IMG/VR virus record: IMGVR_UViG_3300030388_001015
Span: 7,085 to 46,523 of that record
Length of the DNA: 39,439 bases
Origin: a virus
Direction: 5' to 3' (one strand)
Below are positions 6,685-36,359 of this stretch, piece after piece. Position numbers and translations under genes: made by a program. Every line of letters begins with the position of its first letter. The stretch's first letter is position 1. A model generated the notes under the pieces. That model saw only the letters and a list, made by a program, of their open reading frames with translations. It was not told the origin of the DNA and searched no databases.

Positions 6685-7311
6685 ATGGCTACAGTTGCAG
6701 GTCCTTACGGACTTAAAGCCGTAAACCACATTGGTGGTACGCCTTACGCGGGATCTACTCGCTTACTCCCTATTACTACCGCAGCGGTTGCTAACGCAAC
6801 TTCGATATTTAACGGCCAAGTTGTTAACTTAACAGCAGGTGGAACCGTTATAGTAAACCCGAATGATGGTGATTCGGGCGGCGCCGGTGGTACAGCTGCA
6901 GCGTTTGGTGCTGGAGTAGTTGGAGTATTTGTAGGATGTACTTACTCAGATCCTGTCACAGGGGTATTAACTTTTAATCAGTACTGGCCAGGTAATGCGG
7001 CAACAGATGCACTAGCTTATGTTGTTGACGATCCCAATGCTTTGTTTCAAATACAAGCAGCAGGACCGATTGTTCAGGCAGAACTTGGAGAGAATTTTCA
7101 TTTTCAAGCTCCTCAAACCGGAACAGCCATATCAGGTAACTCTACAACAGCCGCTTGTATAGCTGCAGACTTTGCTGTTACAGCAGGTTTTGGGTTTAGA
7201 CTGGTTGATTTTGTTGATGGTCCTACCTCCACAGTTGGTGATGCGTTTACAGATTTAATCTGTAAGTTTAATGCTGACATTCATTCATATACCAACTCAA
7301 CCGGTATCTAA
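6685..7311 (+). CDS. Beta-rich head protein, decoration candidate
   Basis: A 208-residue Gly/Ala/Thr/Val-rich protein with few charged residues, preceded by a GGAG ribosome site. It opens with GPYGLKAVNHIGGTPYAGST and contains GVFVGCTYSDP and FNQYWPG, a pattern I associate with capsid-associated proteins coded just before Mu gpT-like capsid genes in marine phages. The composition predicts mostly beta structure, as expected for a decoration or cement protein on the capsid lattice. It could also be a minor capsid component. Twelve bases separate it from the capsid gene, so the two are very likely co-expressed. Confidence 0.7.
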   Translation: MATVAGPYGLKAVNHIGGTPYAGSTRLLPITTAAVANATSIFNGQVVNLTAGGTVIVNPNDGDSGGAGGTAAAFGAGVVGVFVGCTYSDPVTGVLTFNQYWPGNAATDALAYVVDDPNALFQIQAAGPIVQAELGENFHFQAPQTGTAISGNSTTAACIAADFAVTAGFGFRLVDFVDGPTSTVGDAFTDLICKFNADIHSYTNSTGI

Positions 7312-14641: not shown

Positions 14642-17401
14642 ATGGCGCTCATTTTAAATGATAGAGTAAAACAAGAGACTACTACAACAGGAACGGGCAC
14701 AATTACGCTTGGTACTCAACCTGCTGGGTATCAGTCTTTTGCTGCGGGAATTACTAATGGGAGCACGGTTTATTATGCTATCGCTAATACGGAAGCATCA
14801 ACAACTGAATGGGAAGTAGGTTTAGGTACATTCTCTTCTTCTGGTGCTGGTACTGTTACTAGAGATACTGTCTATACTTCGTCTAACTCAAATAATAAAA
14901 CAAACTTTGGTGCTGGCACAAAAGAAATTTTTGTTACTTATCCCGCCTCTAGATCGCTTTTTAAGGCTGCTGATAATTCTATTTCTCTTGCTGGCCCAAC
15001 TACTTTTGGTAGCACCGTTTTACTTAATCAAGATCCTACACTTAACTTACAGGCAACCACTAAACAATATGTAGATAACTCTATTGCTGCGGGCTTAGAT
15101 ATTCACACTGCGGTGAGACTAGAAACAACTGGAGCTTTAAGTGCTGGATATTCAAATGGTTCTTCAGGTGTTGGCGCTACTTTAACTAATAGTGGAACCC
15201 AAGCCGCATTAGTTATAGATAGTGTTGCAGCAGTTGCTAATAATAGAGTCTTAGTTCAACAACAATCTAATGCTGCTCATAACGGTATTTATGTTGTTAC
15301 TAATATAGGTTCAGGGTCAGTAAATTGGATATTAACTCGGTCTACTGACGCAAATACTTTTGGGTTAAATACCCCAACTAAATTAGGACAGGGATCCTAT
15401 GTATTTGTAACCTCTGGTAATACTAGAGCAGGTCAATCTTTTGTTTGTAATACTGTAGGGACAATTACTTTTGGTACAACAAACATAACTTTTGCTCAAT
15501 TCTTTGCAACACCTGTTTATACAGGAACAGCACCAATAAATGTAACAGGACAAGTTATAGCCTTAACTGGAGTTGTTGGTCCAACAAAAGGTGGTACAGG
15601 ATTAAGTTCATTAGCGACAGGTAATTTATTATATGGTACAGGATCTAATACTTGGGGTGCGCTAGGGCTAGGAGCGGCATATAAAGTACTTGTCGTTAAT
15701 TCAGGTGGTTCACAACTTGAATGGGGTACTGTTGCATTAAATCAATCTGCCGCAGTATCAGGAGCTTTGGGTGTTGCTAATGCAGGTACGGGACTAACTT
15801 CTTATACACTTGGAGATTTAATTTATGCTTCAGGTAGTGCAACACTAGCTAAACTTGCAGGGAATACAACCACTACTAAAAAATACTTACAAGAACAAGG
15901 TAACGGAAGTGCTGCCGCTGCCCCTAGTTGGCAACAAGTAGCCGCTGCGGATATATCAGGGTTGGCTACGAGTGCAACAACAGACACTACCAATGCAGCT
16001 AATATCTCTAGTGGTACTTTACCTGCGGCACGACTTTCAGGTTCATACACCGGGATTACAGGCGTTGGTACTTTAACAGCGGGAACTTGGTCAGCAAGTA
16101 CTATTGCTTTAAATAAAGGTGGTACAGGAGCTACAACTGCAAGTGATGCAAGAGATAATTTAGGTGTAGAGATAGGTGTTAATGTACAAGCCTATGATGC
16201 TGATTTAACAGCAATAGGTGGTTTAGCAAAAACAGATGGTAACTTTATTGTTGGTAATGGTTCTACTTGGGTAGCAGAAAATGGTGCTACAGTTAGAACA
16301 TCTTTAGGACTAGGAACAGCAGCTACTACAGCAGCTAGTGCTTACGCCACAGCAGCACAAGGAACTAAGGCAGACAATGCATTAGCTAAAGCTAGTAACC
16401 TATCTGACTTAGCAAACGTAAGTACAGCAAGAGATAATCTTGGAGTACAGATTAATGATGATGTAATAGGTTATGTAACACCTAGCACTTCTGGTAATGT
16501 TTTAACTTCTAATGGTTCTGCTTGGACAAGTGCAGCCATTTCTAGTATACCATCAACTTTAGGGGTAACAGGTCTATTAACAGCAAACGCAGGTGTTGTT
16601 GTAGACGAACTTACTATTGATGCTGACACCATTACAGCTACAGATGACTTCATAATAGATGCAGCAGGTGACATAACACTTGATGCAGGAGGCGGAGATG
16701 TAAATTTTGCTGATGATGGAACAGGTTTTGCATTTATTGCTAGAAGTGGTAATAATGCCATATTTGGTAATCCTGTTTCAGATGGTAACATATTAATTCA
16801 AGGAAGTGACGGAGGAACTGGTCAAGTTTACATTGAAATAAATCCAGGCGTAAACGAAGGTGTTTATGCTTTTCATGCCAATGGTGCGGGTAGTAGTGGA
16901 AATCAACTTGGAATCACTCTATTTAATGCTACCAATGGAGGTACGTTCTCTATTAATACAAACACAACTAGTGGTTTTGAGACCCATACTTTTAGAGTAA
17001 ATGGCACTCAAAAAGGAGCTATTGTTGTTAGTTCTAGTGGAACTGCTTTTCAAACAGGCTCTGATTACAGATTAAAACAAAATGTAAATTATAGTTGGGA
17101 TGCAACAACTGAGTGTAAAAAATTAAAACCTTGTAGATTTAAGTGGATTAGTGATGTTGAAATAGAAGATGGTGGTGGTGCTGTAGCACCAATTACTTCA
17201 GGATTTATTGCACATGAATTACAAACAGTAGTCCCTGAAGCAGTTTCTGGTGTAAAAGATGCAACTGAAACATATATAAATGATGATGGTGATAGTGCCA
17301 CACGAATAAAACCACAAGGAATAGACCAAAGTAAAATTATCAGCATCTTAACCAAAACTATACAAGAGTTAGAAGCTCGCATAACAGCATTAGAGGGTTA
17401 A
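14642..17401 (+). CDS. Tail fibre with C-terminal S74 self-cleaving chaperone domain
   Basis: A 919-residue host-recognition fibre. The N-terminal ~110 residues form the usual attachment domain (LNDRVKQETTTTGTGTITLG ... TKEIFVTYPASRSLF). The shaft has repeated Gly-Gly-Thr-Gly motifs (KGGTGLSSLATGNLLYGTGS, NAGTGLTSYTLGDLIYASGS, NKGGTGATTASDARDNLGVE). The last ~110 residues are an S74 intramolecular chaperone: SDYRLKQNV with Ser807 and Lys812 as the expected catalytic pair, SGFIAHELQTVVPEAVSGV, and a final coiled coil (IISILTKTIQELEARITALE). S74 domains help the fibre trimerise and then cut themselves off. Two Ser-Ala-Arg-Asp-Asn-Leu-Gly-Val type segments suggest internal duplication. Confidence 0.9.
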   Translation: MALILNDRVKQETTTTGTGTITLGTQPAGYQSFAAGITNGSTVYYAIANTEASTTEWEVGLGTFSSSGAGTVTRDTVYTSSNSNNKTNFGAGTKEIFVTYPASRSLFKAADNSISLAGPTTFGSTVLLNQDPTLNLQATTKQYVDNSIAAGLDIHTAVRLETTGALSAGYSNGSSGVGATLTNSGTQAALVIDSVAAVANNRVLVQQQSNAAHNGIYVVTNIGSGSVNWILTRSTDANTFGLNTPTKLGQGSYVFVTSGNTRAGQSFVCNTVGTITFGTTNITFAQFFATPVYTGTAPINVTGQVIALTGVVGPTKGGTGLSSLATGNLLYGTGSNTWGALGLGAAYKVLVVNSGGSQLEWGTVALNQSAAVSGALGVANAGTGLTSYTLGDLIYASGSATLAKLAGNTTTTKKYLQEQGNGSAAAAPSWQQVAAADISGLATSATTDTTNAANISSGTLPAARLSGSYTGITGVGTLTAGTWSASTIALNKGGTGATTASDARDNLGVEIGVNVQAYDADLTAIGGLAKTDGNFIVGNGSTWVAENGATVRTSLGLGTAATTAASAYATAAQGTKADNALAKASNLSDLANVSTARDNLGVQINDDVIGYVTPSTSGNVLTSNGSAWTSAAISSIPSTLGVTGLLTANAGVVVDELTIDADTITATDDFIIDAAGDITLDAGGGDVNFADDGTGFAFIARSGNNAIFGNPVSDGNILIQGSDGGTGQVYIEINPGVNEGVYAFHANGAGSSGNQLGITLFNATNGGTFSINTNTTSGFETHTFRVNGTQKGAIVVSSSGTAFQTGSDYRLKQNVNYSWDATTECKKLKPCRFKWISDVEIEDGGGAVAPITSGFIAHELQTVVPEAVSGVKDATETYINDDGDSATRIKPQGIDQSKIISILTKTIQELEARITALEG

Positions 17402-18048: not shown

Positions 18049-19362
18049 ATGACTACTTATTCAAATTTAGGAATAGCACTCATAGGAACCGGCGAAGAGT
18101 CAGGTACGTGGGGAACCGTAACTAATAATAACTTAGCTTTTGCGCTTCAAGAACCTATTGCTAACACTACAAATGTAGCTGTTTCTGGTGGCGGTGCTAC
18201 TAATACAATGGCATGGAACACTTCTTCTAATGCTTCTCAACCCCCCAGGTTCTTACGGCTAAATCTTACTGGCTCTGGTGGTGGCACAGGAAACTTAGTT
18301 GTTCCTACGCTTAGTGGTGGTAAAAATTATATTATTAACAACGCTTCTAATAGTGCAATGACTGTAAAAACAGCAAGCGGTTCAGGCATTTTAGTGCCTG
18401 CAGGTAACTCTCGCTCTGTTTATCAAGATGGAACAAATGTAGTTTTGACGAGCAATTACTTTACAGGTACGGGCGCTTTCGGTGCTCTATCTGCTTCGGG
18501 TACTGTTTCGGGTAATGGTTTTGTTGCTAGGTTTGCAACTCCAGGTCCTATTGGAAATGGAACTCCAAGTACGGGTGCTTTTACTACGGGCGCTTTTACT
18601 ACACTAACTAATACAGGTAATACTACATTAGGAGACGCTGCAGGCGACTCAGTTGTTTTTAATGCCTCTACAGCTACTATTCCAAACAATTTAACATTTA
18701 GCGGTACGGGTTCTATTACGCTTCCTGTTGGTACAACAGCACAAAGACCTACACCGGCGGTAGGTATGCTTCGTTATAATTCAACTTTATCGACTGCTGA
18801 ACAGTATGCAGGTAGCGCTTGGATTGGAATACCTACTACGGCTTCTATAACTGCAATCGTTGATGCGGCTGTTTTAGCAGGTAAGTTAGCTTTATATCCG
18901 GTAGGTACTATTTACACACAAGCAGGTGTATCTACTAATCCGAGTAGTTTACTTGGGTTTGGTACATGGGCATCACATGGTACTGGACGAGTATTAGTAG
19001 GATTAGACGCAGGAAACGCACTAATAGATACACTAGGAGAAACAGGCGGTAGTGCTAATTCTCCTGCTGTTAATACAACTACTGGTGCTACAGCACTTAC
19101 AGCAGCACAAACTAAACAAGGTAGTTTATCAAGAGTTCGTTTAACAAATTCATCTACTGCTGCTGACAGAAATATACCAGCAACTGGAGAATCAAGTGGC
19201 GTAATGGTAGATGCTAACAGTATTTCAGGAGCTTTCGGGTTGCAATTTACTAATAATTCAACTACATCTGATACTCACACTCACTCAGTAACTAATGGTA
19301 CTACTACTAATGCTAACTACCAACCATTTATTGTGGTTTATATGTGGAAACGGACCGCTTAA
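18049..19362 (+). CDS. Second tail fibre / tail-tip protein with collar-like C-terminus
   Basis: A 437-residue fibre-type protein. The N-terminus (TTYSNLGIALIGTGEESGTW-GTVTNNNLAFALQEPI) is a domain I often see at the start of fibre proteins in marine phages. A beta-rich middle (TGSGGGTGNLVVPTLSGGKN, Ala/Thr/Gly-rich shaft) leads to a C-terminal domain PVGTIYTQAGVSTNPSSLLG-FGTW ... GRVLVGLDAG, ending YQPFIVVYMWKRTA. That layout resembles collar-type tips (T4 gp12/gp10-like) in which the final Trp-Lys-Arg segment closes a trimer. No chaperone domain is attached. The next gene starts immediately after its stop. Confidence 0.82.
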   Translation: MTTYSNLGIALIGTGEESGTWGTVTNNNLAFALQEPIANTTNVAVSGGGATNTMAWNTSSNASQPPRFLRLNLTGSGGGTGNLVVPTLSGGKNYIINNASNSAMTVKTASGSGILVPAGNSRSVYQDGTNVVLTSNYFTGTGAFGALSASGTVSGNGFVARFATPGPIGNGTPSTGAFTTGAFTTLTNTGNTTLGDAAGDSVVFNASTATIPNNLTFSGTGSITLPVGTTAQRPTPAVGMLRYNSTLSTAEQYAGSAWIGIPTTASITAIVDAAVLAGKLALYPVGTIYTQAGVSTNPSSLLGFGTWASHGTGRVLVGLDAGNALIDTLGETGGSANSPAVNTTTGATALTAAQTKQGSLSRVRLTNSSTAADRNIPATGESSGVMVDANSISGAFGLQFTNNSTTSDTHTHSVTNGTTTNANYQPFIVVYMWKRTA

Positions 19363-19950
19363 ATGAAACCAGCTAAACCCAATAGTGTTGCTTGGGGGAT
19401 AATTATATTTTATATAGTATTACTTTTTATATTTTATGTAGCTGGTTCTGCTATGACTCATGCAGCTACAGAAGTAAACACTACTACTAACTCTGACTCA
19501 GAGATTAAATCTAGGGGTAGAACAGTAGTTATATCGCCCCCTCCCTCTGCTATTAGCCCATCTATGGGTGGTTCTTCATCAGATATATGTACGTCAGGAG
19601 TATCAGGAGCAGTACAAACACAAATCTTAGGTATATCATCTGGTGAAACTGTACGAGATGAGAATTGTGAACGATTAAAGATTTCTAAGACCCTGTACGA
19701 TATGGGAATGAAGGTAGCAGCAGTATCCGTACTATGTCAAGACAGAAGAGTGTATGACGCAATGGGTATGGCTGGGACTCCTTGCCCATACTTAGGTGCT
19801 ATTGGTGACTTAGCTGCTAAAGGTTGGAAAGCTAACCCACAACTTATACCAGAACCTACTGTATTGGAAACCAAAGAAGATGTTAAGAAGAACAGAAACA
19901 AAATTACTTTTGGTACTATGGGTCTTAGCATGTTGTTATTCCTTCTCTAG
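19363..19950 (+). CDS. N-terminally anchored exported protein of unknown function
   Basis: A 195-residue protein with one hydrophobic segment at residues ~10-29 (WGIIIFYIVLLFIFYVAGSA) followed by a Ser/Thr/Pro-rich linker, so the bulk should lie in the periplasm. The core CTSGVSGAVQTQILGISSGE then VRDENCERLKISKTLYDMGM and VLCQDRRVYDAMGMAGTPCP has four Cys that could pair in the oxidising periplasm. The last ~14 residues are hydrophobic (TFGTMGLSMLLFLL). I associate this core with an exported marine-phage protein of unknown role. It starts directly after the fibre stop and overlaps the next gene by 71 bases. Lysis, envelope change or virion assembly are all possible. Confidence 0.72.
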   Translation: MKPAKPNSVAWGIIIFYIVLLFIFYVAGSAMTHAATEVNTTTNSDSEIKSRGRTVVISPPPSAISPSMGGSSSDICTSGVSGAVQTQILGISSGETVRDENCERLKISKTLYDMGMKVAAVSVLCQDRRVYDAMGMAGTPCPYLGAIGDLAAKGWKANPQLIPEPTVLETKEDVKKNRNKITFGTMGLSMLLFLL

Positions 19951-21634
19951 TTTTAGTGAAGAAGTAAAGCTAACTAGTCCCGGCCATACCACAGTACATG
20001 ATGACCACTACGCAGAAGTGCCATTGCAATTTGTGTTCCCGTTCTATGATGAAAACTTTAGTACTTCTTATATGTTTACCAATGGGGTAGTAGGGTTTAG
20101 GAATCCAACACAAGCAAGTGTACACAGCCATTGGTGTTGTAATGGAAGGGATTTAGAGAATCAACAAAACATTAGCCAATATGGGTATGCAATAGCCCCA
20201 TTGTGGACAGATTTAATAGATTTAGGTGCAGAAGGAAGTGGTTTATTTACTGAAGGTGATGCTTTACAACAGACCTATATGTGGAGAAACTTAGCAGAAT
20301 ACAGAGATGCTACTAGGTTAAACTCTTTTAAACTACAGATTAAACAAGATGGTTCGTACACAGTAGATTATGCTGCTGTAAATATACAAAACCACGCAAT
20401 AGCTATAGGAGAACAAGGAAACTTATCACAAGGCTATCAGGGTACTCAGAACTATTATTATCCTTCGGGATACACAGGAGTACCACAGGGGTACGGCAAT
20501 GAACAGAATAGTATTAATGTTCTTAGCACTCTCTGCTCCGCAAACGCTTTATACGACCCTCAGTGTTCGGGATATGCTGAAGCGTATGCACAACAGCTAT
20601 ACACACAGGAGTGTAGCTCAGATACATTATACGATAGTGGATGCAATGGGTATGAAGAAGCCTACTTCCTCGATCAATGTACAACAGATGCAACCTACGA
20701 TAGAACTTGTCAAGGGTACACAGAAGCCTACCTAGAACAGCAGTGTATGTACAACCCACAGTATGACACTACTTGTAATGGATATGTTAATATGGAGGAA
20801 CAAGAGCCTTCATTAGTTACAGCTATGGTAGATGATGGGAGTATAGTTGAGGGTGATAACCCTATCAATGAAGTCCTAGAACAACCAGATATTATAACTG
20901 ACTTTGCTAACACAAGCGGTTATGAGATAGAGGGTATGCCAAGTGCCTCTGCTCAACTTTTTGAAATGCCGTTGCCGGTAATAGATATACCACTTATAGT
21001 TGAACCAGAGGTGGTAGAAGTTGTTACTGAAATGCAACAGATGGAACAAGAACTAGAAAGGGAGATAGCCACAATTGAACCAGAACCTGAACAACTGGAG
21101 CAAACTGAAACACCTGAACCAGAGATGGCGGAAGAACCTATTGAAGAGATTGTTGAGGCAGAATCTGAACCAGAGCCGGAGGAAGAACAGAGAGAGGAGC
21201 TGGTTGTAGAAGAAGTAGCAACTGAAGAAGAACCCGAAATACAAGAGGAAGTTAAAGTTGAAACAAAGGTTGCTACAAAAGAAAAAGCTGTTAAAACAAA
21301 GGCAACAACTAAGTTACTACCTAATAAAAAAGAACTTACAAAAAGTCAAAAGCTTAAAATCTTAGTAGCACAAAAAGCTAATGCTTTAACTAAAAAAATT
21401 GAAAGTGCAGTAACGTTAGAACAACAGATGGTAATACAACAGCAGCTACTATCTCTTATTTCGTTTGTTCCTAACTTTAACTACGCTGAAAGTAAGATGC
21501 AAGATAGAGCTAGTTTTTACCCACCTAGCGCACTTGCTGATAGTTCATTTTCTAGATGGTTTAGAACAGACCCTAACTTTGAACGATTAGAAGATTTACA
21601 ATACCCACAAAGGAACAGGCAATGGCAGAGATAG
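19880..21634 (+). CDS. Secreted Cys-repeat protein with NIDO-like N-terminal domain
   Basis: A 584-residue protein starting inside the previous gene. ATG 19880 yields a signal peptide (MLRRTETKLLLVLWVLACCY, then SFSSFSEE); a Cys18 that could be lipid-modified is present but the lipobox is imperfect. Residues ~30-185 form a beta-rich domain with HSHWCCNGRDL and YGYAIAPLWTDLIDL, reminiscent of NIDO domains of extracellular proteins. Four Cys-x9-Cys repeats follow (219-302). Residues ~300-450 are extremely Glu/Pro-rich, then come a Lys-rich section and a helical C-terminus. The stop overlaps the next gene by 13 bases. It is probably exported; adhesion, envelope protection or a virion role are all open. 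Confidence 0.75.
   Translation: MLRRTETKLLLVLWVLACCYSFSSFSEEVKLTSPGHTTVHDDHYAEVPLQFVFPFYDENFSTSYMFTNGVVGFRNPTQASVHSHWCCNGRDLENQQNISQYGYAIAPLWTDLIDLGAEGSGLFTEGDALQQTYMWRNLAEYRDATRLNSFKLQIKQDGSYTVDYAAVNIQNHAIAIGEQGNLSQGYQGTQNYYYPSGYTGVPQGYGNEQNSINVLSTLCSANALYDPQCSGYAEAYAQQLYTQECSSDTLYDSGCNGYEEAYFLDQCTTDATYDRTCQGYTEAYLEQQCMYNPQYDTTCNGYVNMEEQEPSLVTAMVDDGSIVEGDNPINEVLEQPDIITDFANTSGYEIEGMPSASAQLFEMPLPVIDIPLIVEPEVVEVVTEMQQMEQELEREIATIEPEPEQLEQTETPEPEMAEEPIEEIVEAESEPEPEEEQREELVVEEVATEEEPEIQEEVKVETKVATKEKAVKTKATTKLLPNKKELTKSQKLKILVAQKANALTKKIESAVTLEQQMVIQQQLLSLISFVPNFNYAESKMQDRASFYPPSALADSSFSRWFRTDPNFERLEDLQYPQRNRQWQR
20534..20785 (+). repeat. Four Cys-x9-Cys / Gly-Tyr repeats in the secreted protein
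   Basis: Cys pairs at residues 219/229, 245/255, 267/277 and 289/299 keep nine residues between partners. Each unit ends with Tyr-Asp-x-x-Cys-x-Gly-Tyr, and three continue with Glu-Ala-Tyr. Units are 22-26 residues apart; the first has four extra residues. The pattern predicts one disulphide per unit in a small helical or solenoid-like repeat. Confidence 0.88.
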
Positions 21635-21957
21635 AATATGCAGGAGTTAAAGTAGGGGGCAGCAAACTATTACTTATAGTACCACTTATAGGTACGTTGT
21701 TAGGAGGTCTGTGGGGTGGTTTTGAGTTTTATAAAGACTACTCAGATATGAAGGAACAAATTCAAAGCTATGTTGCTCCAGATCTTAGCGGTATTGAACA
21801 GAAAGTAGCAGTCTTTGCAGCAGAGAATTTAACTATTCGTCAGACTATGGATCAGCAAGTTAAGATCATAGAAAAACTATCAGAAGATATGTATAAGATA
21901 GAAGAAAGGATAAATAAAAAAGTAACCAAAGCCTTAGATAACCCTCTGGCTTACTAG
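21622..21957 (+). CDS. Small membrane protein with periplasmic or cytoplasmic coiled coil
   Basis: A 111-residue protein with one membrane segment at residues ~16-35 (LLLIVPLIGTLLGGLWGGFE) followed by an aromatic linker (FYKDYSDM) and a long heptad-type helix to the C-terminus (VKIIEKLSEDMYKIEERINK). It starts within the previous gene with AAAGGA upstream. Size and topology fit an inner-membrane spanin-like or holin-accessory protein, and the next gene codes a 3-TM holin-like protein. I associate the segment Gly-Gly-Ser-Lys-Leu-Leu-Leu-Ile-x-Pro with marine phages, where the function is unproven. Confidence 0.7.
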   Translation: MAEIEYAGVKVGGSKLLLIVPLIGTLLGGLWGGFEFYKDYSDMKEQIQSYVAPDLSGIEQKVAVFAAENLTIRQTMDQQVKIIEKLSEDMYKIEERINKKVTKALDNPLAY

Positions 21958-21966
21958 GAGATTATT

Positions 21967-22449
21967 ATGATTTCAATGTTATCAGGCATATTAGGTTTTG
22001 CTACATCAGGATTACCTAACGTATTAAAGTTTTTTCAGCAGAAAGGAGACCAAAAGCATGAAAGAGATATGGCGCAGCTGGCTACAGAACGTTCTTTGGC
22101 AATGGCTGAAAAAGGTTACGCCTCTCAAGAACGTATTGAAGAATCTAAAACAGATCAAGTTAATATGCAAACCTACGCCGAAGAACGTAAAGCGTTATAT
22201 CAACATGATTCTACCGTGGCTGATGGTGCAAGCCAGTGGGTCACTAATCTTAGGGCTTCTGTTCGGCCTATTATTACTTATGTGTTTATTTTTCTTCTTT
22301 TGTTTGTTGATATAGCTGGAATGATATGGGCCATTAACTCTGGCGTTGAGTTTCAAAAAGCAATGGATATAGTATTTTCTGATGAAGAAATGGCTATTGT
22401 AGCTAGTATTATAGGTTTCTGGTTTGGTAGTCGTCATTGGGGCAAGTAG
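21967..22449 (+). CDS. Holin-like protein (3-TM, GTA-holin type)
   Basis: A 160-residue membrane protein. After a mildly hydrophobic N-terminus (MISMLSGILGFATSGLPNVL) there is a long charged helix, then two strong membrane segments: RPIITYVFIFLLLFVDIAGM and, near the C-terminus, MAIVASIIGFWFGSRHWG. The segment Leu-Arg-Ala-Ser-Val-Arg-Pro and the ending Phe-Trp-Phe-Gly-x-Arg are typical of the 3-TM holin superfamily seen in gene transfer agents and marine phages. It would form membrane holes at lysis; no endolysin gene is seen in the window, so its partner must lie elsewhere or be unrecognised. Confidence 0.75.
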   Translation: MISMLSGILGFATSGLPNVLKFFQQKGDQKHERDMAQLATERSLAMAEKGYASQERIEESKTDQVNMQTYAEERKALYQHDSTVADGASQWVTNLRASVRPIITYVFIFLLLFVDIAGMIWAINSGVEFQKAMDIVFSDEEMAIVASIIGFWFGSRHWGK

Positions 22450-22485: not shown

Positions 22486-24630
22486 ATGGCATTAAAAAAA
22501 TTAAAATTTGTCCCTGGAATTAATCGTGATCGAAGTAATTTAGCCTCAATGGGTGGTTGGTACGATGGTGATAAAATTCGTTTTAGAGAGGGCTACGCAG
22601 AAAAAATAGGTGGCTGGACGGTAGCTACTTTTGACCGATATGTAGGAGAAGCGGTTAAACTTTTTGTTTATTCTACTTTTACTGGTATTGAACTTACAGG
22701 ACTAGCTACAAGTCAAAAAATATATATTCGAGCAGGTACAGCTCTTTACGACATTACCCCTATTCGTGCTACTTTTACTTCTACTGCTACAAATAATTGT
22801 TTTACTACTACTTCGGGTTCTGGTGTTGTTACTGTCGCTATTACAGGACACGGAGCACAAAATGGTGACTTTGTTACTTTTAGTGGCGCTGCTGCTGTTG
22901 GCGGTATTACCGCTGTCCAACTAAATCAAAACTTTGAAATAACTTATATTAATGCAAATAGCTTTAGTATCTCAACCGCTGGCAGTGCAACTTCTGCAGC
23001 AACTGGAGGGGGTACAGGAATTACCGCTGCATTTGAAATTAACATTGGTCCCGATACTTCAGTAGGTGGTTATGGTTGGGGCACTAGCACTTGGGGTCGT
23101 GGTACTTGGGGTTCAGGTTCTGCTACACCTGCTCTTATTAGTGTTCGCCTTGTCTTTATGGACAACTTTAATGATGATCTTATTTTTAATCTAAATGACG
23201 AAGGCCCTATTTTTTATTGGGATTATAGCGCTGGGTTTACTACTAGAGCTGTTTTATTAAGTAGTATTTCGGGTGCAATTGCTGTACCAACTAAAACAGA
23301 ACAAACCTTTTTTGCTCCTTCAGGTCATTTTCTTGCTCTTGGTTGCAGTGAATACAGTCAAGTTGATACTGCGGGCATATCAATTAATAGTATTACTCGC
23401 GTTGCAGGAAACAAAGTAGCTACGGTAACTACAGCTAGTAGTCATAATTTAGAGACGGGTGACTACGTGACGATGTCAGGACAACAACCCAAAGATTATT
23501 TAGGAAGCTATCAAATAACTGTTACGGCTGGAACTACATTTACTTACACAATGCTTACTGCCCCCGCCAACAATACTGTAGTTGGAACTTATGTTTATAA
23601 TGATTATAGTCAGGGTATTTTTGATCCTTTACTTGTTCGCTGGGCGGATGTTAATGCAGACATAGGCCCTAAACCTGAGTATTGGAAACCTGAAATAGCT
23701 AATTCTGCAGGATTTTTAAGGATTCAAGAAGGTTCTAAAATTGTTACGGGTCTTAACACAAGACAGGAAACGCTAGTGTGGACAGAAAGCACCCTAAATA
23801 CCCTGCAATTTTTAGGTACTGCCGAGGTATTTAAACTACAGCTACTCTCTAATTCTACTAGTATTATGGGACCTAATGCTGTTGTTGAGGTAAACAACAT
23901 TACCTACTGGATGGGTACAGATAACTTCTTCCAATACGATGGTCGAGTCAACGTACTCCCTTGTCCACTACTACGCTATGTATTTGAAGATATTAATAGA
24001 GCTCAATCAAGCCTCGTTTATGCGGGGTCAAATAAAGAATTTAATGAAATAGTTTGGTTTTACTGTTCAAGTGGTAATTCAAGTGCTAATCGTTATATTA
24101 TTTATAATTATAGAGACAAAATCTGGTATTACGGACAGCTTAATAGAACAACATGGCTTGATGCAGGGCTTAATCAATTTCCTTTGGCGACTGCTAATGG
24201 TTATATATATAACCACGAACGAGGAACAGATGATGGGCAGCCATTAGGAGCTACATCTCTTCCTATTACTGCTTACATTGAGTCTGCTTTTGTTGATATA
24301 GATGATGGTGAGTTTTATATGCTGACTAAACGGATAATACCAGATGTTGATTTTACCGCTTCTGATCCTGCTGTTACTCCAGAAGTTGATATGTCTATTG
24401 CTGTTACTAAGTTTCCTGGTGCAGCTACGTCTGTGTCAGATGTAGGCGGAGTTTCATTAACACGTAATGTAGTTACTACAGCAGGGACTATTTCTCAGTA
24501 TACTAATGAGATTTTTATTAGAGCTAGAGGTAGACAAATTAGTTTTAAAATAGCATCAGATACTTTGGGAACTCAATGGCAATTAGGTGATACAAGACTT
24601 GATGTTAAACCCGATGGAATGAGAGGCTAA
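22486..24630 (+). CDS. Tail nozzle-like protein (P22 gp10 / T7 gp12 analogue)
   Basis: A 714-residue protein likely to form the distal tube of the short tail. It begins KFVPGINRDRSNLASMGGWY followed by DGDKIRFREGYAEKIGGWT, a start I associate with nozzle or DNA-stabilisation proteins of marine podoviruses. A Thr/Gly-rich insert occurs at ~100-185, then Gly-Trp-Gly repeats (GWGTSTWGRGTWGSG). The middle has TLNTLQFLGTAEVFKLQLLS, SIMGPNAVVEVNNITYWMGT and FFQYDGRV, and the end GRQISFKIASDTLGTQWQLG then RLDVKPDGMRG. Beta-propeller folds are typical of this class. The role assignment is by order and resemblance only. Confidence 0.65.
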   Translation: MALKKLKFVPGINRDRSNLASMGGWYDGDKIRFREGYAEKIGGWTVATFDRYVGEAVKLFVYSTFTGIELTGLATSQKIYIRAGTALYDITPIRATFTSTATNNCFTTTSGSGVVTVAITGHGAQNGDFVTFSGAAAVGGITAVQLNQNFEITYINANSFSISTAGSATSAATGGGTGITAAFEINIGPDTSVGGYGWGTSTWGRGTWGSGSATPALISVRLVFMDNFNDDLIFNLNDEGPIFYWDYSAGFTTRAVLLSSISGAIAVPTKTEQTFFAPSGHFLALGCSEYSQVDTAGISINSITRVAGNKVATVTTASSHNLETGDYVTMSGQQPKDYLGSYQITVTAGTTFTYTMLTAPANNTVVGTYVYNDYSQGIFDPLLVRWADVNADIGPKPEYWKPEIANSAGFLRIQEGSKIVTGLNTRQETLVWTESTLNTLQFLGTAEVFKLQLLSNSTSIMGPNAVVEVNNITYWMGTDNFFQYDGRVNVLPCPLLRYVFEDINRAQSSLVYAGSNKEFNEIVWFYCSSGNSSANRYIIYNYRDKIWYYGQLNRTTWLDAGLNQFPLATANGYIYNHERGTDDGQPLGATSLPITAYIESAFVDIDDGEFYMLTKRIIPDVDFTASDPAVTPEVDMSIAVTKFPGAATSVSDVGGVSLTRNVVTTAGTISQYTNEIFIRARGRQISFKIASDTLGTQWQLGDTRLDVKPDGMRG

Positions 24631-30017: not shown

Positions 30018-33000
30018 ATGGCTGAAAAATTTACGATTGATGATTTTGCTGAAGAATCTTTCTCATCTGCACCTAAACAGAAATTTACGATTGATGATTT
30101 TGCTGAAGAATCTTTCTTATCTGCACCTCAACCTGCACCTCAACAAAAATTTACGATTGATGATTTTGCTGAAGAATCTTTCTCCCCTGCATCTCCTGCA
30201 GACACCCCACCCGCTTCTGATGCTCGTGATGAGTTTGGTTACATATCTGAAGCAGAACAAGACAGAGAATCTTTTTTTCTTCCTACTGATATATTTCGGG
30301 GTTTTAGACAGGGGTTACAAACCACAAAAGATGTTACTGGGGCCTCTATGGCCGCAGCGGGGATAGCTCGTGACAGAGCTGAAGAAGGTTCAGGCGATGC
30401 CTTAATTCAAGAAGGCATGGCAATGGTTCAGCGAGCTGAAGAAGGAAGAAAAAAAATAGGTATTAAAAAGTCTGATACTTTTAGTGGTGCTTGGGAAGAA
30501 GGTATAGACGAAGTATTTTTTGATTTTGTTCCTTATCAAATAGGTGCTCTTATACCTATGATAGCTGAGGCTGTTGCAACTGGGTTTGGGGTTGGCAAAA
30601 TTGCTGAGAAGACGGGTAGTAAGACAGCTCCAGCACTAAAGAAAATTGCTACTAAAACCGCAGGAAAACTTGCAGCGGCTACTAACCCTGTTACAGGAGC
30701 TGCAGCTGCAGTTAGCACGGCTGTTGATGCAGCAAAAGGAATAAGAAAAGCAAGTAACTACATAAAAAAAGTTGTAACGCGAGGGGCTTTTAAAGGGGAC
30801 GTAAAAAAAGAAATTGCATTAATTAATAAAAAACGAGCAGCAAAAAATTTAGCCCCACTTAATAAAGCGCAAGCAAAAGTAGAAGCTAACAAAATTATTA
30901 CAAAAAAACTATCAGAGCCAGGTACGCAGGCTTTGTTTAGAAAACGTCTTGGTAACGTTATTGGTTCACAAACAGTATTACAACGGTACGGTCAAGGAGA
31001 AGTTTATGGTCGTGCTATCCACGAGGCTATTAAAAATGAACCTGATCCACAGTTACAACTAGACCTTATTAAAGAACTCCCCGCAGCAAAATTAGCTACA
31101 TTAGGTGCAGTTCATGGACTAACAGATCAACTGTTGTTTGCCGCGCTTGGTAAAACTATTCGCAATGCTAACCCTAAAACAAGAAATGCTTTACTTGCTA
31201 CTGCCATAAGCACGGGTAAACTTAGTACACAAAGTGGTGTAACAGAAGTAATTCAATCTGCAATTGAAAGATATGGTGCAGAGTTACCTCTGTCTGATAA
31301 AGAAGCGCTGACAGAATATTTAGATTCGTTTGCAGCTGGGTTCGCTGGAGTTCTTCCTTACGGTGTTGCAGGAGGAATATCTGCAAAGAATAAACAAGTT
31401 GAAGCACAAACAAAAGAAAAACTAGAACAAGAAATTAAAGAGGAAGCCGCACGTGATAAGGACCGTTCTGGACAACGTAGAGAAAGAGCAGCTAGTGATA
31501 CTAATACAAGCAGAGAAGCTGCAGCTGTTCAGAATATACAAGAAGAATTTAGTGTAGGACCTGTAGAAACCTTTGGAAAATATATAAGAAGGACTTTACT
31601 TAGATTACCAGAAAACAGTTCTGCTAATAAAACGCTAGAAAATATTGACCTAACCAAACCCGGTGAAACACAAGTAGCAATTGATATTTTAGAGTCTACT
31701 TTATTACCTCAAGAAGACGGAGGGCTTACTACAATAAATAAAGAGCCTGTTAGGTTAACTATTGACCAACTGAAAAAACAACTTGATCCTGAATATGTGC
31801 CTCCAGCTAGAGCAGAAACTATAGGAGAGACTATAGTAGAAACTGGTGATATCACAGCATATGACGCTGTATTAGCTACTGAAATAAATAACATTAAAAA
31901 AAGAAAAGATATATTTATAACCGAAGCTCGCCTAAATAGAATTTTACCTAACGCTACAAACGAGGTTATAGATACTGTAACAGAACGTTTAAAAAAAGAG
32001 GGTATTTTTGTTGGTAGTAAAAAAGATGCTTTGAAAGCTAAAACAATTGCTGAAGCAGAAACTCAAACTAGGTTTGATGAGAACATAGAAAAAGAGCGTT
32101 TAGAAAAAGAGCGTCTAAATAAAGAATCTCAGGATAGACTTAATAAAGTAGTTCCAGTTAAATTTGACGAAAATAGTCAGTCTGATTTAGATCTAGATAA
32201 TAAACCTCAGCTTGCAAAAGGTATAGACACGCAACAAGACACACAACAAGACACACAACAAGACATACGGCAACAACTTAGCGAGGCGCAAGGCGAACTT
32301 ATAAGAGCAGAAAGTGTAAGAAAGCAAGACTACGAAAGACTAAAAAACCCAATAAAAAAAGCTAAACTTGATAGAAATGTTGAAGTTGCAAAACAAAAAG
32401 TTTTAAACCTAGAAGCTCAGATTCCAGCAGAAACTCCAGCACAAGCAGAAACTAGAAGAGTAGCTGGTTTAGAAGCTATAGCTAAAATAAGAGCAGATCT
32501 TAATTTATCTGAACAAGAAGCTAGAGTTATTCTTGATGCAGGGCAAGTTATTGAAAACACAGGCGAAACAATTGAGTCTGTTACAGAATCTTTTGCAAAT
32601 CAATATGGTAAGAATATTACTCAAGGAATAAAACGCGGGCTTATTAATATAGTTGATAGCGTAGAAGGTTTAGCTACTCTTAATATACCCAACTATTTAG
32701 GTATTACTCTCCCTGCTAACGCAAAAGCTTTTGTACTAAATGGGAAAGCTTATTTTATTGCTAACCGTATAACCAAAGAAGAAGCACCAGGATTGTTATT
32801 ACATGAAGTGGGTGCTCATTATGGTTTAAAAAGAATGTTAGGAGTAAAAAAATATAATGAGTTAGTTGCCTCTCTAAAAAGTAAAAGAAATTCTGATAAA
32901 GAAATCAGCGCCGCTTTTGATTATGTTACTCGTGCTTATCCTGAGTTTACTGAAAATGGCGAAGCTAATATTAATGACCCTTATTTTGTTGACGAGGTCA

Positions 33001-36000
33001 TTGCTTACATAAGCGAAAGCACACCTAATAATTCTTTATATCGAACCGTAGTTGCTAACATTAAAGCCTTCTTAGCAAAATTAGGTATGGGCTGGAACGT
33101 TAACAACATTAGTGCCAGACAAATTCAAGATTTAGTTCAACACTCTCTTAAAACTGCTATAAAAGAAAAAGAAAATACCCAATCACTTCCTCAAGATATA
33201 AACCGTCTACAGGCAGCTTTTAGGGACCCTAATGAAAACACAGCAGAAAATAAAAACAAACAGGATGAACTAGAAAAAAGAAGAAGCCCAGAACAAAAAA
33301 GAAATAATGCCAACAGAGAAGCGGGCACAACACCACAAGAAACTTTCTTTGACCAACCCGGACAGCCTACGATAGCACAGAAAATAGGTGGAGCCGTATT
33401 TAGTTTTGATAGCCCACTTAATACAGCAATTAGAAAAGCAATGAAAGAAAGTGGAAAGGCATTTGAAGAAATTAAAAGGGTAATGTTAGACATGGCGGTT
33501 TCACAAGCAGTCCATGCCGCTACTGTAGCTGAACGTTTTCTAGAGTATGGGGGAATAAAGTGGTCTGATAAAAAACAAATGTTTGAAAATTTTGATACAG
33601 AACCAGATCCAACTACGGGTAAAGAAATGCCACTACCCAGTCTATTAAAAGCAACGTTTTTAGCAAGAGATCTAGCTAAGAAAAATAATATTACTTTTGA
33701 AACAATGCGAGAAGAAATAACAAGGGCATTTGTTGCGCGCCGTGTTGAGTATTTAGTTAAACAAAATCAAATATATTTAAGCGAGTATCAAACAGCTATT
33801 TACAACGCAAACCGTAAAAGATCTGAAGCAAACAGAATTGAAAGTAAAAGTTTAGAAGCTGCCGAATCACTTGAAGCTCAGGCTGATGCTATAGAACAAG
33901 AAGCTAAAATTAATTATAGAAAAAACTATGTATTAGTAGATAACGAACAAAAAAATTTGGTTGGCGATTTAAAATACTTTGAAGAGTATGGACAAGATTT
34001 AGAAAATATTTATGATATGGTTATTGCGTCTAAAAACCGCGCTCTTAAATTTGGAGTCCAAAATCAATTAATGTCACAAGAACAATTTGAAGAACTTACA
34101 GGTCTTGTTCTTACTGAAAACTTGCTTAAAAAAGACCCAAAAATTTTAGGGGGAATGGTAGATGTATTTGTACCTTTCTACCGAGAGGGTAAACCAAGAG
34201 ATAGTACTAATCAAAAAGGATTAGAAGAACGCGGGCGATATTATAAATTAAGAGGCTCGTTTGAACCTGTTGCAGATGTATTTGATAATATGGAAAGGTT
34301 TATACAAAGCACTATTACACGCGGTATTATCAATCGTGCGGCTCTAGCAAAAATTAAATACTCAATGAGATATTTAAATAATGACACTACAGGAATTACA
34401 CATGTAAGAGAAGTAGACAGAGCTACTGAAAATAAAGAATCAAATGTAGTTGAAGTGAGTCGGGTAATAGAAGGTGAACAAAAAAAGGTTTTGTATGAAT
34501 TTTCTAGTCCTTATTTTGCTTCGGCAGTTAGCGGTATTGAAAGTATTTCTATTCCGGGCATAAGTATGATGGCAAGTGTATCTAACTTATTTAGATCAAA
34601 TATTATTTTGTACCCAGCGTTTGGCCTTTCGCAACTATCTCAAGATGCTATTAGTGCTATGACTTCTTCTGGAACATTTATTCCCGCTGCAATACCGCTT
34701 CGCGTTATAAAAAACTTTGTAGGTACCATGATTGGTATGAATAAAACTCACGACGATGCAAGGAAACTGGGCTTAGTATCGGGCTGGGCGCATCTACAAG
34801 CAGCTGATGATATAGAAAATAACCCTAATTGGTTAGGCGCATATAATGCTTTTAGACGGCAGCTAAGTAAAGTTCCCGGATTAACTAGAGGTAGCGCTAT
34901 TGAGGTGCCAATCGCTGGTAAAATTAAACCTTTAGAACTTTCTGTTAGTGGTTTTTTACATAGAATAGCAATGGCTTCAGATAACTCTATTAGAGAGTCT
35001 GTTTTTGAGCAAGTTATGTTTGAAACACGAATTAAAAATTATTTTAAAAATAAAGCTTCTGGTAAACCAACTACATGGAAAGCTACTGTAGGGGATGAAG
35101 CAGAGGCATATTCTAAGGTAGCAGAAGTAATTAACTTTAAACGCGCTGGTTCTGACCCTCGTGTTACAGCCGTTCGTAGAACAGTTGCTTTTAGTGGAGC
35201 TATGTTGCAGGCGCTGTCTGTACAAGGAAGAGTATTTACACTTCAAGGAGTAAGCCCTACTTCAAAAGGAGTAGCAGCGGCTCAACTAGCTTCAGGGTTA
35301 GGGCAAGTAACAATGATGACTCTTTTGTATTACATGCTTATTTCTGATGAAGAAGAATATAAAAACTTATCTGACTTAGAAAAAATGCATTATTATTACA
35401 TTCCAGGTATGGGCGCTGAAGGTAGACTAAGAGTCCGTCCTGACATGACTGCGCTTCTTGGTAAAGTAATTCCAGAAGCTTATTTAGATTTACAAATGGG
35501 TAGATCAGACGTACGCGCATTTCGACAAGCTATAAATAAAAGTGCAGATAAAATCCTTGCTGGTAACTTTATTCCTACTATTTTGCAACCTTTAGAAGAA
35601 GCTGTTTCAAACCGAAGTAGATTTACGGAGAGAGAAATAATACCAGAATATATGGAAGGTATAGATGCAAAAAATCAATACAACGGTTCTACTAGTGAGT
35701 TTGCTAAACAACTCGGTGTTATGACAAATGTTTCTCCTCTTTGGGTAGACCATTTTTTAAAGGGATATCTAGGTACCACAGGTAATATGATAGGTCTAGG
35801 TATGGGTACTTTGCTAGAAGACCAAAATATTATTGCTCCCCCTCCTGCTAAAACTGACAGAGATGCAAGAGCCGCGTTTCCCGGTAATGCAGCTTTTGTT
35901 AGAAAAGAAAATGAAAATGCTAGGGCTAGAGAATTAATATATGATGTGATTGAACAGCTTAAACAAGCTAAAAACTTTAGTTCTGACTTAACTAAAAGAG

Positions 36001-36359
36001 CAGGGTATAACCCTACAGAAGGTTATAGAGAATTAGCAAACAGATTAAGTCAAACACCAGAAAATAGTAAAGATTTTACAAAAAGAAAGCTACTTAACTT
36101 TAGTACGCAGATAAATATATTTAGCAAAGTTTTATCAAATTATAATGCCGATATAAAACGTATAAAAGAAGATAAAAGCATGAAACCAGAATTAAAACGA
36201 CAAAAAATAGCAGCGTTTGATAACCAATTAAAAAGTTTGCTTTCTCGTTCTGCAATATTAAATTTAAGACAGCAGATATATGGGTCTGGTGTAGATGCTA
36301 ATAGCCCCTTAACAAAAAGAATTAGAAAATTAGTAAAAGATAGTGAATCTATAGATTAA
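30018..36359 (+). CDS. Giant polyvalent / ejection protein with zincin-like motif and LPD38-like region
   Basis: A 2113-residue protein, the largest here, coupled to the ejection genes. It opens with three copies of KFTIDDFAEESF (residues 4-15, 22-33, 44-55). A membrane-prone Ala/Gly segment follows at ~175-240, then charged helices. Residues ~895-1050 hold a metallopeptidase-like domain with LLLHEVGAHYGLKRML: His929, Glu930 and His934, with Glu993 in DEVIAYISE a possible third ligand; the spacing is HExxxH rather than HExxH. Residues ~1495-1935 (LFRSNIILYPAFGLSQLSQD, DPRVTAVRRTVAFSGAMLQA) resemble the LPD38 region of phage polyvalent proteins. It is probably carried in the head and ejected to open the wall and guard DNA entry. 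Confidence 0.82.
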   Translation: MAEKFTIDDFAEESFSSAPKQKFTIDDFAEESFLSAPQPAPQQKFTIDDFAEESFSPASPADTPPASDARDEFGYISEAEQDRESFFLPTDIFRGFRQGLQTTKDVTGASMAAAGIARDRAEEGSGDALIQEGMAMVQRAEEGRKKIGIKKSDTFSGAWEEGIDEVFFDFVPYQIGALIPMIAEAVATGFGVGKIAEKTGSKTAPALKKIATKTAGKLAAATNPVTGAAAAVSTAVDAAKGIRKASNYIKKVVTRGAFKGDVKKEIALINKKRAAKNLAPLNKAQAKVEANKIITKKLSEPGTQALFRKRLGNVIGSQTVLQRYGQGEVYGRAIHEAIKNEPDPQLQLDLIKELPAAKLATLGAVHGLTDQLLFAALGKTIRNANPKTRNALLATAISTGKLSTQSGVTEVIQSAIERYGAELPLSDKEALTEYLDSFAAGFAGVLPYGVAGGISAKNKQVEAQTKEKLEQEIKEEAARDKDRSGQRRERAASDTNTSREAAAVQNIQEEFSVGPVETFGKYIRRTLLRLPENSSANKTLENIDLTKPGETQVAIDILESTLLPQEDGGLTTINKEPVRLTIDQLKKQLDPEYVPPARAETIGETIVETGDITAYDAVLATEINNIKKRKDIFITEARLNRILPNATNEVIDTVTERLKKEGIFVGSKKDALKAKTIAEAETQTRFDENIEKERLEKERLNKESQDRLNKVVPVKFDENSQSDLDLDNKPQLAKGIDTQQDTQQDTQQDIRQQLSEAQGELIRAESVRKQDYERLKNPIKKAKLDRNVEVAKQKVLNLEAQIPAETPAQAETRRVAGLEAIAKIRADLNLSEQEARVILDAGQVIENTGETIESVTESFANQYGKNITQGIKRGLINIVDSVEGLATLNIPNYLGITLPANAKAFVLNGKAYFIANRITKEEAPGLLLHEVGAHYGLKRMLGVKKYNELVASLKSKRNSDKEISAAFDYVTRAYPEFTENGEANINDPYFVDEVIAYISESTPNNSLYRTVVANIKAFLAKLGMGWNVNNISARQIQDLVQHSLKTAIKEKENTQSLPQDINRLQAAFRDPNENTAENKNKQDELEKRRSPEQKRNNANREAGTTPQETFFDQPGQPTIAQKIGGAVFSFDSPLNTAIRKAMKESGKAFEEIKRVMLDMAVSQAVHAATVAERFLEYGGIKWSDKKQMFENFDTEPDPTTGKEMPLPSLLKATFLARDLAKKNNITFETMREEITRAFVARRVEYLVKQNQIYLSEYQTAIYNANRKRSEANRIESKSLEAAESLEAQADAIEQEAKINYRKNYVLVDNEQKNLVGDLKYFEEYGQDLENIYDMVIASKNRALKFGVQNQLMSQEQFEELTGLVLTENLLKKDPKILGGMVDVFVPFYREGKPRDSTNQKGLEERGRYYKLRGSFEPVADVFDNMERFIQSTITRGIINRAALAKIKYSMRYLNNDTTGITHVREVDRATENKESNVVEVSRVIEGEQKKVLYEFSSPYFASAVSGIESISIPGISMMASVSNLFRSNIILYPAFGLSQLSQDAISAMTSSGTFIPAAIPLRVIKNFVGTMIGMNKTHDDARKLGLVSGWAHLQAADDIENNPNWLGAYNAFRRQLSKVPGLTRGSAIEVPIAGKIKPLELSVSGFLHRIAMASDNSIRESVFEQVMFETRIKNYFKNKASGKPTTWKATVGDEAEAYSKVAEVINFKRAGSDPRVTAVRRTVAFSGAMLQALSVQGRVFTLQGVSPTSKGVAAAQLASGLGQVTMMTLLYYMLISDEEEYKNLSDLEKMHYYYIPGMGAEGRLRVRPDMTALLGKVIPEAYLDLQMGRSDVRAFRQAINKSADKILAGNFIPTILQPLEEAVSNRSRFTEREIIPEYMEGIDAKNQYNGSTSEFAKQLGVMTNVSPLWVDHFLKGYLGTTGNMIGLGMGTLLEDQNIIAPPPAKTDRDARAAFPGNAAFVRKENENARARELIYDVIEQLKQAKNFSSDLTKRAGYNPTEGYRELANRLSQTPENSKDFTKRKLLNFSTQINIFSKVLSNYNADIKRIKEDKSMKPELKRQKIAAFDNQLKSLLSRSAILNLRQQIYGSGVDANSPLTKRIRKLVKDSESID
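30027..30182 (+). repeat. Three 36-bp repeats encoding KFTIDDFAEESF
   Basis: Copies at 30027-30062, 30081-30116 and 30147-30182 are identical over 36 bases, separated by Pro/Ala/Gln-rich linkers of 18 and 30 bases. They sit at the extreme N-terminus of the giant protein. Confidence 0.96.
32226..32261 (+). repeat. Three 12-bp tandem repeats encoding Asp-Thr-Gln-Gln
   Basis: GACACGCAACAA is followed by two copies of GACACACAACAA inside the giant gene (residues 737-748), just ahead of a helical linker region. One base differs in the first copy. Confidence 0.92.

Follow-up and report, generated by a model that had tools for sequence, protein, structure and literature searches.

What does a large, probably exported repeat protein do for the phage that encodes it? 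The question is raised by a stretch of 39,439 nucleotides of viral DNA (IMG/VR record IMGVR_UViG_3300030388_001015, positions 7,085 to 46,523; hereafter the window), which is part of a virus record of 46.5 kb that may be incomplete. The window encodes a terminase, a portal, a major head protein and a DNA-ejection-type protein; downstream of the gene for the last of these lies a 2113-aa ORF (30018-36359), by its position perhaps an internal virion protein. The original prediction for positions 20534-20785 was of an exported, adhesive or surface-exposed protein with Cys-paired repeats and a NIDO-like domain. The ORF that contains these positions, here called gene B, is organized as follows:

19880..21634, plus strand: gene B, 584 aa, the ORF containing positions 20534-20785
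19880..19957, plus strand: signal-peptide-like segment of B, residues 1-26 (end inferred), from the sequence, with a helix at residues 4-20 in the AlphaFold2 model
19982..20494, plus strand: NIDO-like beta domain of B, residues 35-205, the exchangeable head; pLDDT mostly 84-94, loops 53-77
20534..20785, plus strand: four Cys-paired units of 22 or 26 residues in B, residues 219-302, a predicted helical stalk; pLDDT 86-94 over most
20807..21334, plus strand: Glu-rich, predicted disordered linker of B, residues 310-485; pLDDT below 50 for most
21341..21631, plus strand: conserved, predicted helical C-terminal end of B, residues 488-584, from the model and a profile

The structure of B was modeled with AlphaFold2 on a 32-sequence alignment. 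The model contains a mostly confident beta domain (residues 35-205), a confident helical array (213-305), a disordered region (about 312-485) and helices with moderate scores (488-574); its mean pLDDT is only 64 because of the linker. Most of the motifs named in the original prediction could be located. The four C-x9-C units start at residues 219, 245, 267 and 289, and four such pairs were found in none of 20,000 shuffles of B, the maximum being three pairs, in 13 shuffles. WCCNG is at residue 85 and APLWTD at residue 106. The GYxEAY motif, on the other hand, is present in three units (residues 231, 257 and 279), while the fourth reads GYVNME, and the stretch described as Glu/Pro-rich (residues 310-485) is Glu-rich (26%) more than Pro-rich (10%). 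Among 168 complete relatives, the Cys spacing within units is 9 residues in 579 cases, 8 in 43 and 10 in 2, the commonest step from unit to unit is 22 residues (411 cases), followed by 26 (43 cases), and the copy number ranges from 0 to 14 per protein (two in L025, three in L003, four in the window, 12 in L038). By its sequence, this repeat looks like a length-adjustable stalk. The prediction of export is likewise upheld, as our own simple-rule heuristic identifies a signal-peptide-like N terminus in 156 of the 168 relatives. A lipobox pattern occurs in 18 of the 168; the B protein of the window fits it by letters, its close relatives L001 and L003 do not, and no outer-membrane lipoprotein subunit is evident at the family level among the 168 B proteins, to which the scan was confined. 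In L007 (933-2270) and L033, which represent the same contig, the frame of B ends early and the similarity continues in another frame, which would indicate either a broken copy or an assembly error.

The NIDO-like call for the head is supported by sub-threshold matches to PF06119 and by a profile comparison with a protein that passes the Pfam cut-off. The gathering cut-off of PF06119 (25 bits) was reached in none of 15 B-bearing records, and Pfam calls no NIDO domain in B of the window; sub-threshold matches fall within the B ORF in five of the 15 records (judged by frame length) and in another frame in a sixth, and a Pfam search of 32 B members returned PF06119 at E 0.0017 in one. In 143 genomes of one class, a NIDO match above the cut-off was found in two, and one of the proteins, L206, a bacterial protein that by its letters is secreted and of the PEP-CTERM type, was compared with the phage B family (35 non-redundant rows) using hhalign. 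The two align with a probability of 95.4 (E 1.7e-8, 108 columns), with five shuffles and the reverse all giving 0.5 or less, and the homology to a cut-off-passing NIDO protein rests on this one protein. As judged at the profile level, the head of B is a distant NIDO homologue.

Other comparisons yielded little. B matched no fibre or endolysin in searches of PHROG, Pfam or the PDB, and its identification as a known fibre or endolysin, which found no support in PHROG, Pfam or Foldseek against the PDB, was rejected. Foldseek returned no PDB match at E <=0.001 for the predicted models of B or A (the gene upstream). VIA-align gave Z-scores of up to 5.7 for the head (rmsd 4.5, 129 residues aligned) against beta-sandwich parts of PL26 and GH81 enzymes, which is below the level that stands out, with no NIDO chain among the rows, and up to 3.3 for A. 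Four phage proteins in BFVD matched at E <0.001, one of them from Synechococcus phage S-SRM01, and none has a named function except one that is TerB-like. A PDB sequence search with the B profile produced what we read as low-complexity matches to the linker only. No PHROG was found at E 0.01 for seven diverse members of B, no tail or fibre PHROG for these seven or for B of the window, and neither a PHROG nor a significant Pfam family in the members tried. Three B queries matched no phage record at E <=0.001 (the limit being 1e-5 for one), and the sole phage-record match of the B protein of the window at E up to 10 has E 3.

B does not stand alone. Its neighbors in the window are:

14642-17401: tail-fibre-type gene 1, upstream of A
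18049-19362: tail-fibre-type gene 2, directly upstream of A
19363..19950, plus strand: gene A, 195 aa; phrog_20531, no function assigned in PHROGs
19880..19950, plus strand: A/B overlap of 71 nt in different frames, encoding the A tail helix and the B signal peptide
21622..21957, plus strand: gene C, 111 aa; one hydrophobic segment, then a coiled-coil-like region; ends ...NPLAY
21967..22449, plus strand: neighbor D; phrog_6637, with GTA_holin_3TM as a weak match that fails the cut-off (E 0.26)
22486-24630: virion structural protein, downstream of D

The gene had been placed in a membrane-protein cluster and not with the fibres. The cluster is there, but two tail-fibre-type genes lie directly upstream, so that B adjoins fibres as well as membrane-protein genes. 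The product of A begins with a hydrophobic helix (signal or anchor), followed by a Ser/Thr/Asn- and Pro-rich stretch, a core with four conserved Cys residues (76, 102, 125 and 141) and a C-terminal hydrophobic helix (171-194); the mean pLDDT of its AlphaFold2 model is 78.7. Long Asn/Thr/Ser repeats enlarge the N-terminal region of A in L061, L064 and L097; this might be a reason why phage genes of this kind could be mistaken for those of curli-repeat proteins. The C homologues of the roseophages CRP-207 (L018:3292-3873) and CRP-810 (L019:9162-9584) are annotated as lysozyme in their records; they group with the membrane/coiled-coil family C, among the seeds of which they were. The overlap between A and B is found in 100 of 107 representatives, with a median of 65 nt, and the A tail is transmembrane-like in 69 of the 87 with an overlap of at least 40 nt and in none of the 20 with less. 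The DNA for the B signal peptide also encodes the membrane tail of A, which ties the two proteins together and would put the C-terminal end of A in the membrane, provided that this tail is not just a side effect of the overlap. The conserved Cys residues in both A and B fit an oxidising compartment.

The association of these genes extends far beyond the window. A scan of IMG/VR with the B head alignment confirmed 90 of 138 candidate stretches, of which the best 80 were kept. Of 86 loci chosen by B alone, 83 have A upstream of B, and in the other three (L002, L031 and L074) the contig starts inside the B match or about 270 nt before it. A profile of A, for which the window and 10 records of isolated or uncultured phages supplied the sequences, detects 96 of the 99 sequences gathered, and phrog_20531 is matched by all 86 A family members. 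With A as the probe, at least 598 stretches were confirmed among the 600 candidates listed from IMG/VR contigs, and again the best 80 were kept; 28 A loci lie in bacterial contigs (MAG/SAG), which may be stray phage contigs. When the A loci were thinned at 90% identity of A, 137 representatives remained; in 126 of them B belongs to one of the three main clusters, and 106 have a member of the C family. Some of the 11 loci outside the B clusters end just past A (e.g. L112, L116, L121 and L199), and others encode a different or unassigned protein after A (e.g. L017, L018, L019, L023, L109 and L117). Since most loci are fragments and the best-scoring 80 were kept per scan, the class sizes given here and below are not natural frequencies. 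B is the middle gene of a self-contained A-B-C cassette.

Carriers range from 32-kb podovirus-type phages to contigs of at least 300 kb. The cassette is present in the isolates HTVC023P, HTVC033P, HTVC115P and Mosig, and A is also found in CRP-207 and CRP-810, in which the next gene is outside the main B clusters; the isolates that carry A infect Pelagibacter and Roseobacter-type bacteria. In phage HTVC202P the cassette takes up 2.3 kb of 32.2 kb (7.3%), and the retention of such a share of a small genome speaks for a function worth the cost. The neighbors vary among phages and include fibres, terminase, primase, reductases and endolysins, with no fixed place in the genome. The cassette is not named in the libraries searched: A is a member of a PHROG without function, while B, at the thresholds used, has no Pfam or PHROG family (for PHROGs, E 0.01 and seven members). 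Nor did we find a description of it in the open-licence literature on NIDO phage proteins, on pelagiphage spanins and signal peptides, and on phrog_20531.

Within the cassette, the two ends of B behave differently. The N-terminal regions of 168 complete B ORFs fall into classes of 76 (the NIDO-like type), 38, 27, 8, 7, 3, 2 and 2 members plus five singletons. A profile of the last 85 residues, built from NIDO-type B proteins only, finds 151 of the 168 at their C-terminal end, and no reversed sequence reached 0.001. By head class, the profile found 76 of 76, 38 of 38, 26 of 27, 7 of 7, 2 of 2 and two singletons (1 of 1 each), and none in the classes of 8, 3 and 2 or in three singletons (0 of 1 each); on iteration, the frame-broken NIDO-type L007 and L033 were lost and one member of a class of two was gained. 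The last 110 residues of L035 (NIDO type) and L151 (class 2) are 71% identical despite their different heads. Different classes of N-terminal head are thus exchanged on a shared C-terminal end of B. Comparison of close cassettes indicates purifying selection on the head (dN/dS 0.13 for the window and L001, 0.23 for the window and L025), and an arms race by positive selection on the head is unsupported in these pairs.

The cassette as a whole is also exchanged. L001, a near-identical sister phage, belongs to the phage type of the window, and most genes in the stretch they share are 86-97% identical, as opposed to 76% for A and 66% for B. At synonymous sites, the fibre and structural genes on either side diverge by 0.18, compared with 0.81 for A, 1.02 for the head, 1.42 for C and 0.70 for D; the value for gene 14184, further upstream, is 0.41. 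Likewise, the nucleotide sequences of the flanks are for the most part 94-98% identical, and those of 19,250-22,400 for the most part 67-82%, the exceptions in the latter being one 250-nt segment in A (88%) and the last one, in D (85%). A-B-C together with D, and only this block, was therefore replaced in either the window or L001. Phages that share little else with the window in the stretch compared show nucleotide similarity to it at 19374-21956 (L025), 19461-21956 (L027) and, in pieces, at 19457-21944 or nearly so (L003-L007). The homology to unrelated phages begins where A starts and ends at the stop codon of C, and this region moved as a block; D is outside the block transferred in these other phages, and was replaced along with it relative to L001. 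Short stretches of fibre genes are also common to the window and L007, L025 and L032. In L025 the cassette is next to terminase, portal and head protein genes, of which the terminase and head protein have best families different from those of the window, while both portals belong to phrog_1216. A of the window is 91% identical to A of L025, versus 76% to A of its sister phage L001.

As to the end use of the cassette, its surroundings give a divided picture. A search with five lysis gene families in 50 records gave no hit above the cut-off in 34; of the 16 records with such a match, 7 have a holin or endolysin no more than 5 kb from the cassette, compared with 2.5 expected for random placement (P 0.005). 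This proximity is seen in six of nine records below 100 kb and in one of seven above; in six of the seven records of at least 100 kb, the nearest lysis gene found is more than 20 kb away. Strict membership in a lysis cassette was therefore rejected as a rule. In a class-1 version of the cassette (example L184:8494-12494, with about 31 similar representative loci), three extra signal-peptide-like genes, E, F and G, are located between B and C, and all three are present in 31 of the 137 representatives; in L184 and L188 the order is A-B-E-F-G-C-H-3TM holin-GH19 endolysin. E corresponds to phrog_25895 and G to phrog_37374, neither with an assigned function, and F has no family; the assignment of F as a PapD-like chaperone and E as a pilin, suggested by the letters, was dropped, as neither has a Pfam match. 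Homologues of G occur in 180 Vibrio phage records, and in the one record opened, that of Vibrio phage Brizo (L209:5001-5306), a distant homologue lies near a putative holin and an M15 peptidase.

Export, conserved Cys residues, the membrane segments of A and C, a long linker and a head of a binding type together suggest an envelope-spanning complex. We saw no autotransporter, outer-membrane anchor or CsgG-type pore, so that, compared with the surface exposure originally envisaged, a periplasmic action directed at the outer membrane is no less likely. It is tempting to regard A-B-C as an undescribed envelope machine that is anchored in the inner membrane, crosses the periplasm, combines a constant docking end with interchangeable ligand-binding heads and, like the tips of tail fibres, is passed as one block between unrelated phages that infect Gram-negative bacteria of aquatic habitats; we hold this view tentatively, at somewhat less than an even chance. 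In such a machine, exported B would be held at the inner membrane by its constant C-terminal end, docked on A and/or C, while its long acidic linker and its stalk of Cys repeats would span the periplasm, and the exchangeable head (NIDO-like here) would bind a ligand at the outer membrane or in the cell wall. Late in infection, the complex could tether and destabilise the outer membrane so that the progeny leave, which would be the work of spanins carried out by unrelated proteins. That B is the large exported subunit of an envelope cassette whose end use is such a late, spanin-like attack on the outer membrane is a more doubtful proposition, for which we would give distinctly less than even odds. 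The spanin-like role is slightly ahead of receptor blocking or surface adhesion, and the model of an envelope complex itself is well ahead of either lysis or exclusion as its end use. Lysis is favored by the proximity to holin or endolysin genes in 7 of the 16 records, by the gene order of L184 and L188, by the G homologue beside a holin and a peptidase in the Vibrio phage, and by the upkeep of the cassette at 7.3% of a 32-kb genome. A spanin role would not in itself predict the exchange of heads, and the distant lysis genes in large records, the varied neighbors and the absence of a family-level lipoprotein also count against lysis.

Alternatively, the head may block further phages by binding their receptor or a glycan of the envelope, either from within the periplasm or from outside, with head types that are swapped to match different receptors. 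The exchange of heads on a constant tail, the NIDO homology of the head, the traffic of the cassette between differing phage types without a fixed genome place, and its position next to tail-fibre genes in the window would all agree with such superinfection exclusion. We regard it as somewhat less likely than the spanin-like role. A dispensable trait would hardly be expected to occupy 7.3% of a 32-kb genome, the dN/dS values of the head (0.13 and 0.23) point to purifying selection and give no hint of an arms race among heads of one type, and no outer-membrane anchor was identified. The purpose of B could also be served only after lysis, if the periplasmic protein were freed and its head bound debris or neighboring cells, thereby shielding virions from inactivation or clustering hosts; a secreted multi-domain protein with a long stalk and linker, related to a NIDO protein that by its letters is secreted and of the PEP-CTERM type, would be suited to this, but the constant linkage to A and C, with their membrane segments, would be left unexplained, and we find this improbable. 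Still less probable is a virion appendage or fibre: B of the window does lie between fibre genes and a virion structural gene, but 156 of 168 B proteins have a signal-like start, B has no tail, fibre or virion match, and elsewhere the cassette adjoins terminase, primase or reductase genes. The least credible alternative is a curli-like type VIII secretion system of pelagiphages with A as the fibre subunit and B as its tip. Its attraction lies in the repeats of Asn, Thr and Ser near the N terminus of certain A proteins (L061, L064 and L097) and in the curli genes reported in related phages (PMC7029224, PMC9004378 and PMC9599517). Against it stands CsgG, which is absent from the record of the window itself (46.5 kb, possibly incomplete) and from all 10 A-bearing phage records, while control genomes were positive (4 of 14); a curli system as the carrier of the cassette was therefore rejected.

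The proposed envelope machine resembles several known systems in part. Like NIDO proteins (PF06119, L206), B is probably secreted and has similar stretches of the FPFYG, SNG and IAPxWxD types, but it adds the Cys repeats, the acidic linker and a phage-specific C-terminal end, and remains below the Pfam gathering score. With two-component spanins (Rz/Rz1) the cassette shares overlapping genes for exported envelope proteins, sometimes beside a holin and an endolysin, and C, with one hydrophobic segment and a coiled-coil-like region, may correspond to the inner-membrane partner. In contrast to spanins, the cassette shows no family-level lipoprotein among the 168 B proteins, B is much larger than the known spanins and has an exchangeable head, while spanins are not known to have lectin-like heads, and in large phages the lysis genes found are mostly distant from the cassette. 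Exclusion proteins such as T5 Llp and those of the Cor type are small lipoproteins; the idea of an exported phage protein that acts on the outer membrane would be common to both, whereas B is large, modular and part of a three-gene set. A further likeness is to the pelagiphage curli/type VIII secretion cluster (PMC7029224, PMC9004378 and PMC9599517), which also consists of exported proteins of marine phages that moved between phage families.

If the proposed model is true, a system that acts on the envelope through an interchangeable binding head would be common to many aquatic phages, and how the outer membrane is breached or altered by pelagiphages and related phages could be tested directly in existing isolates.
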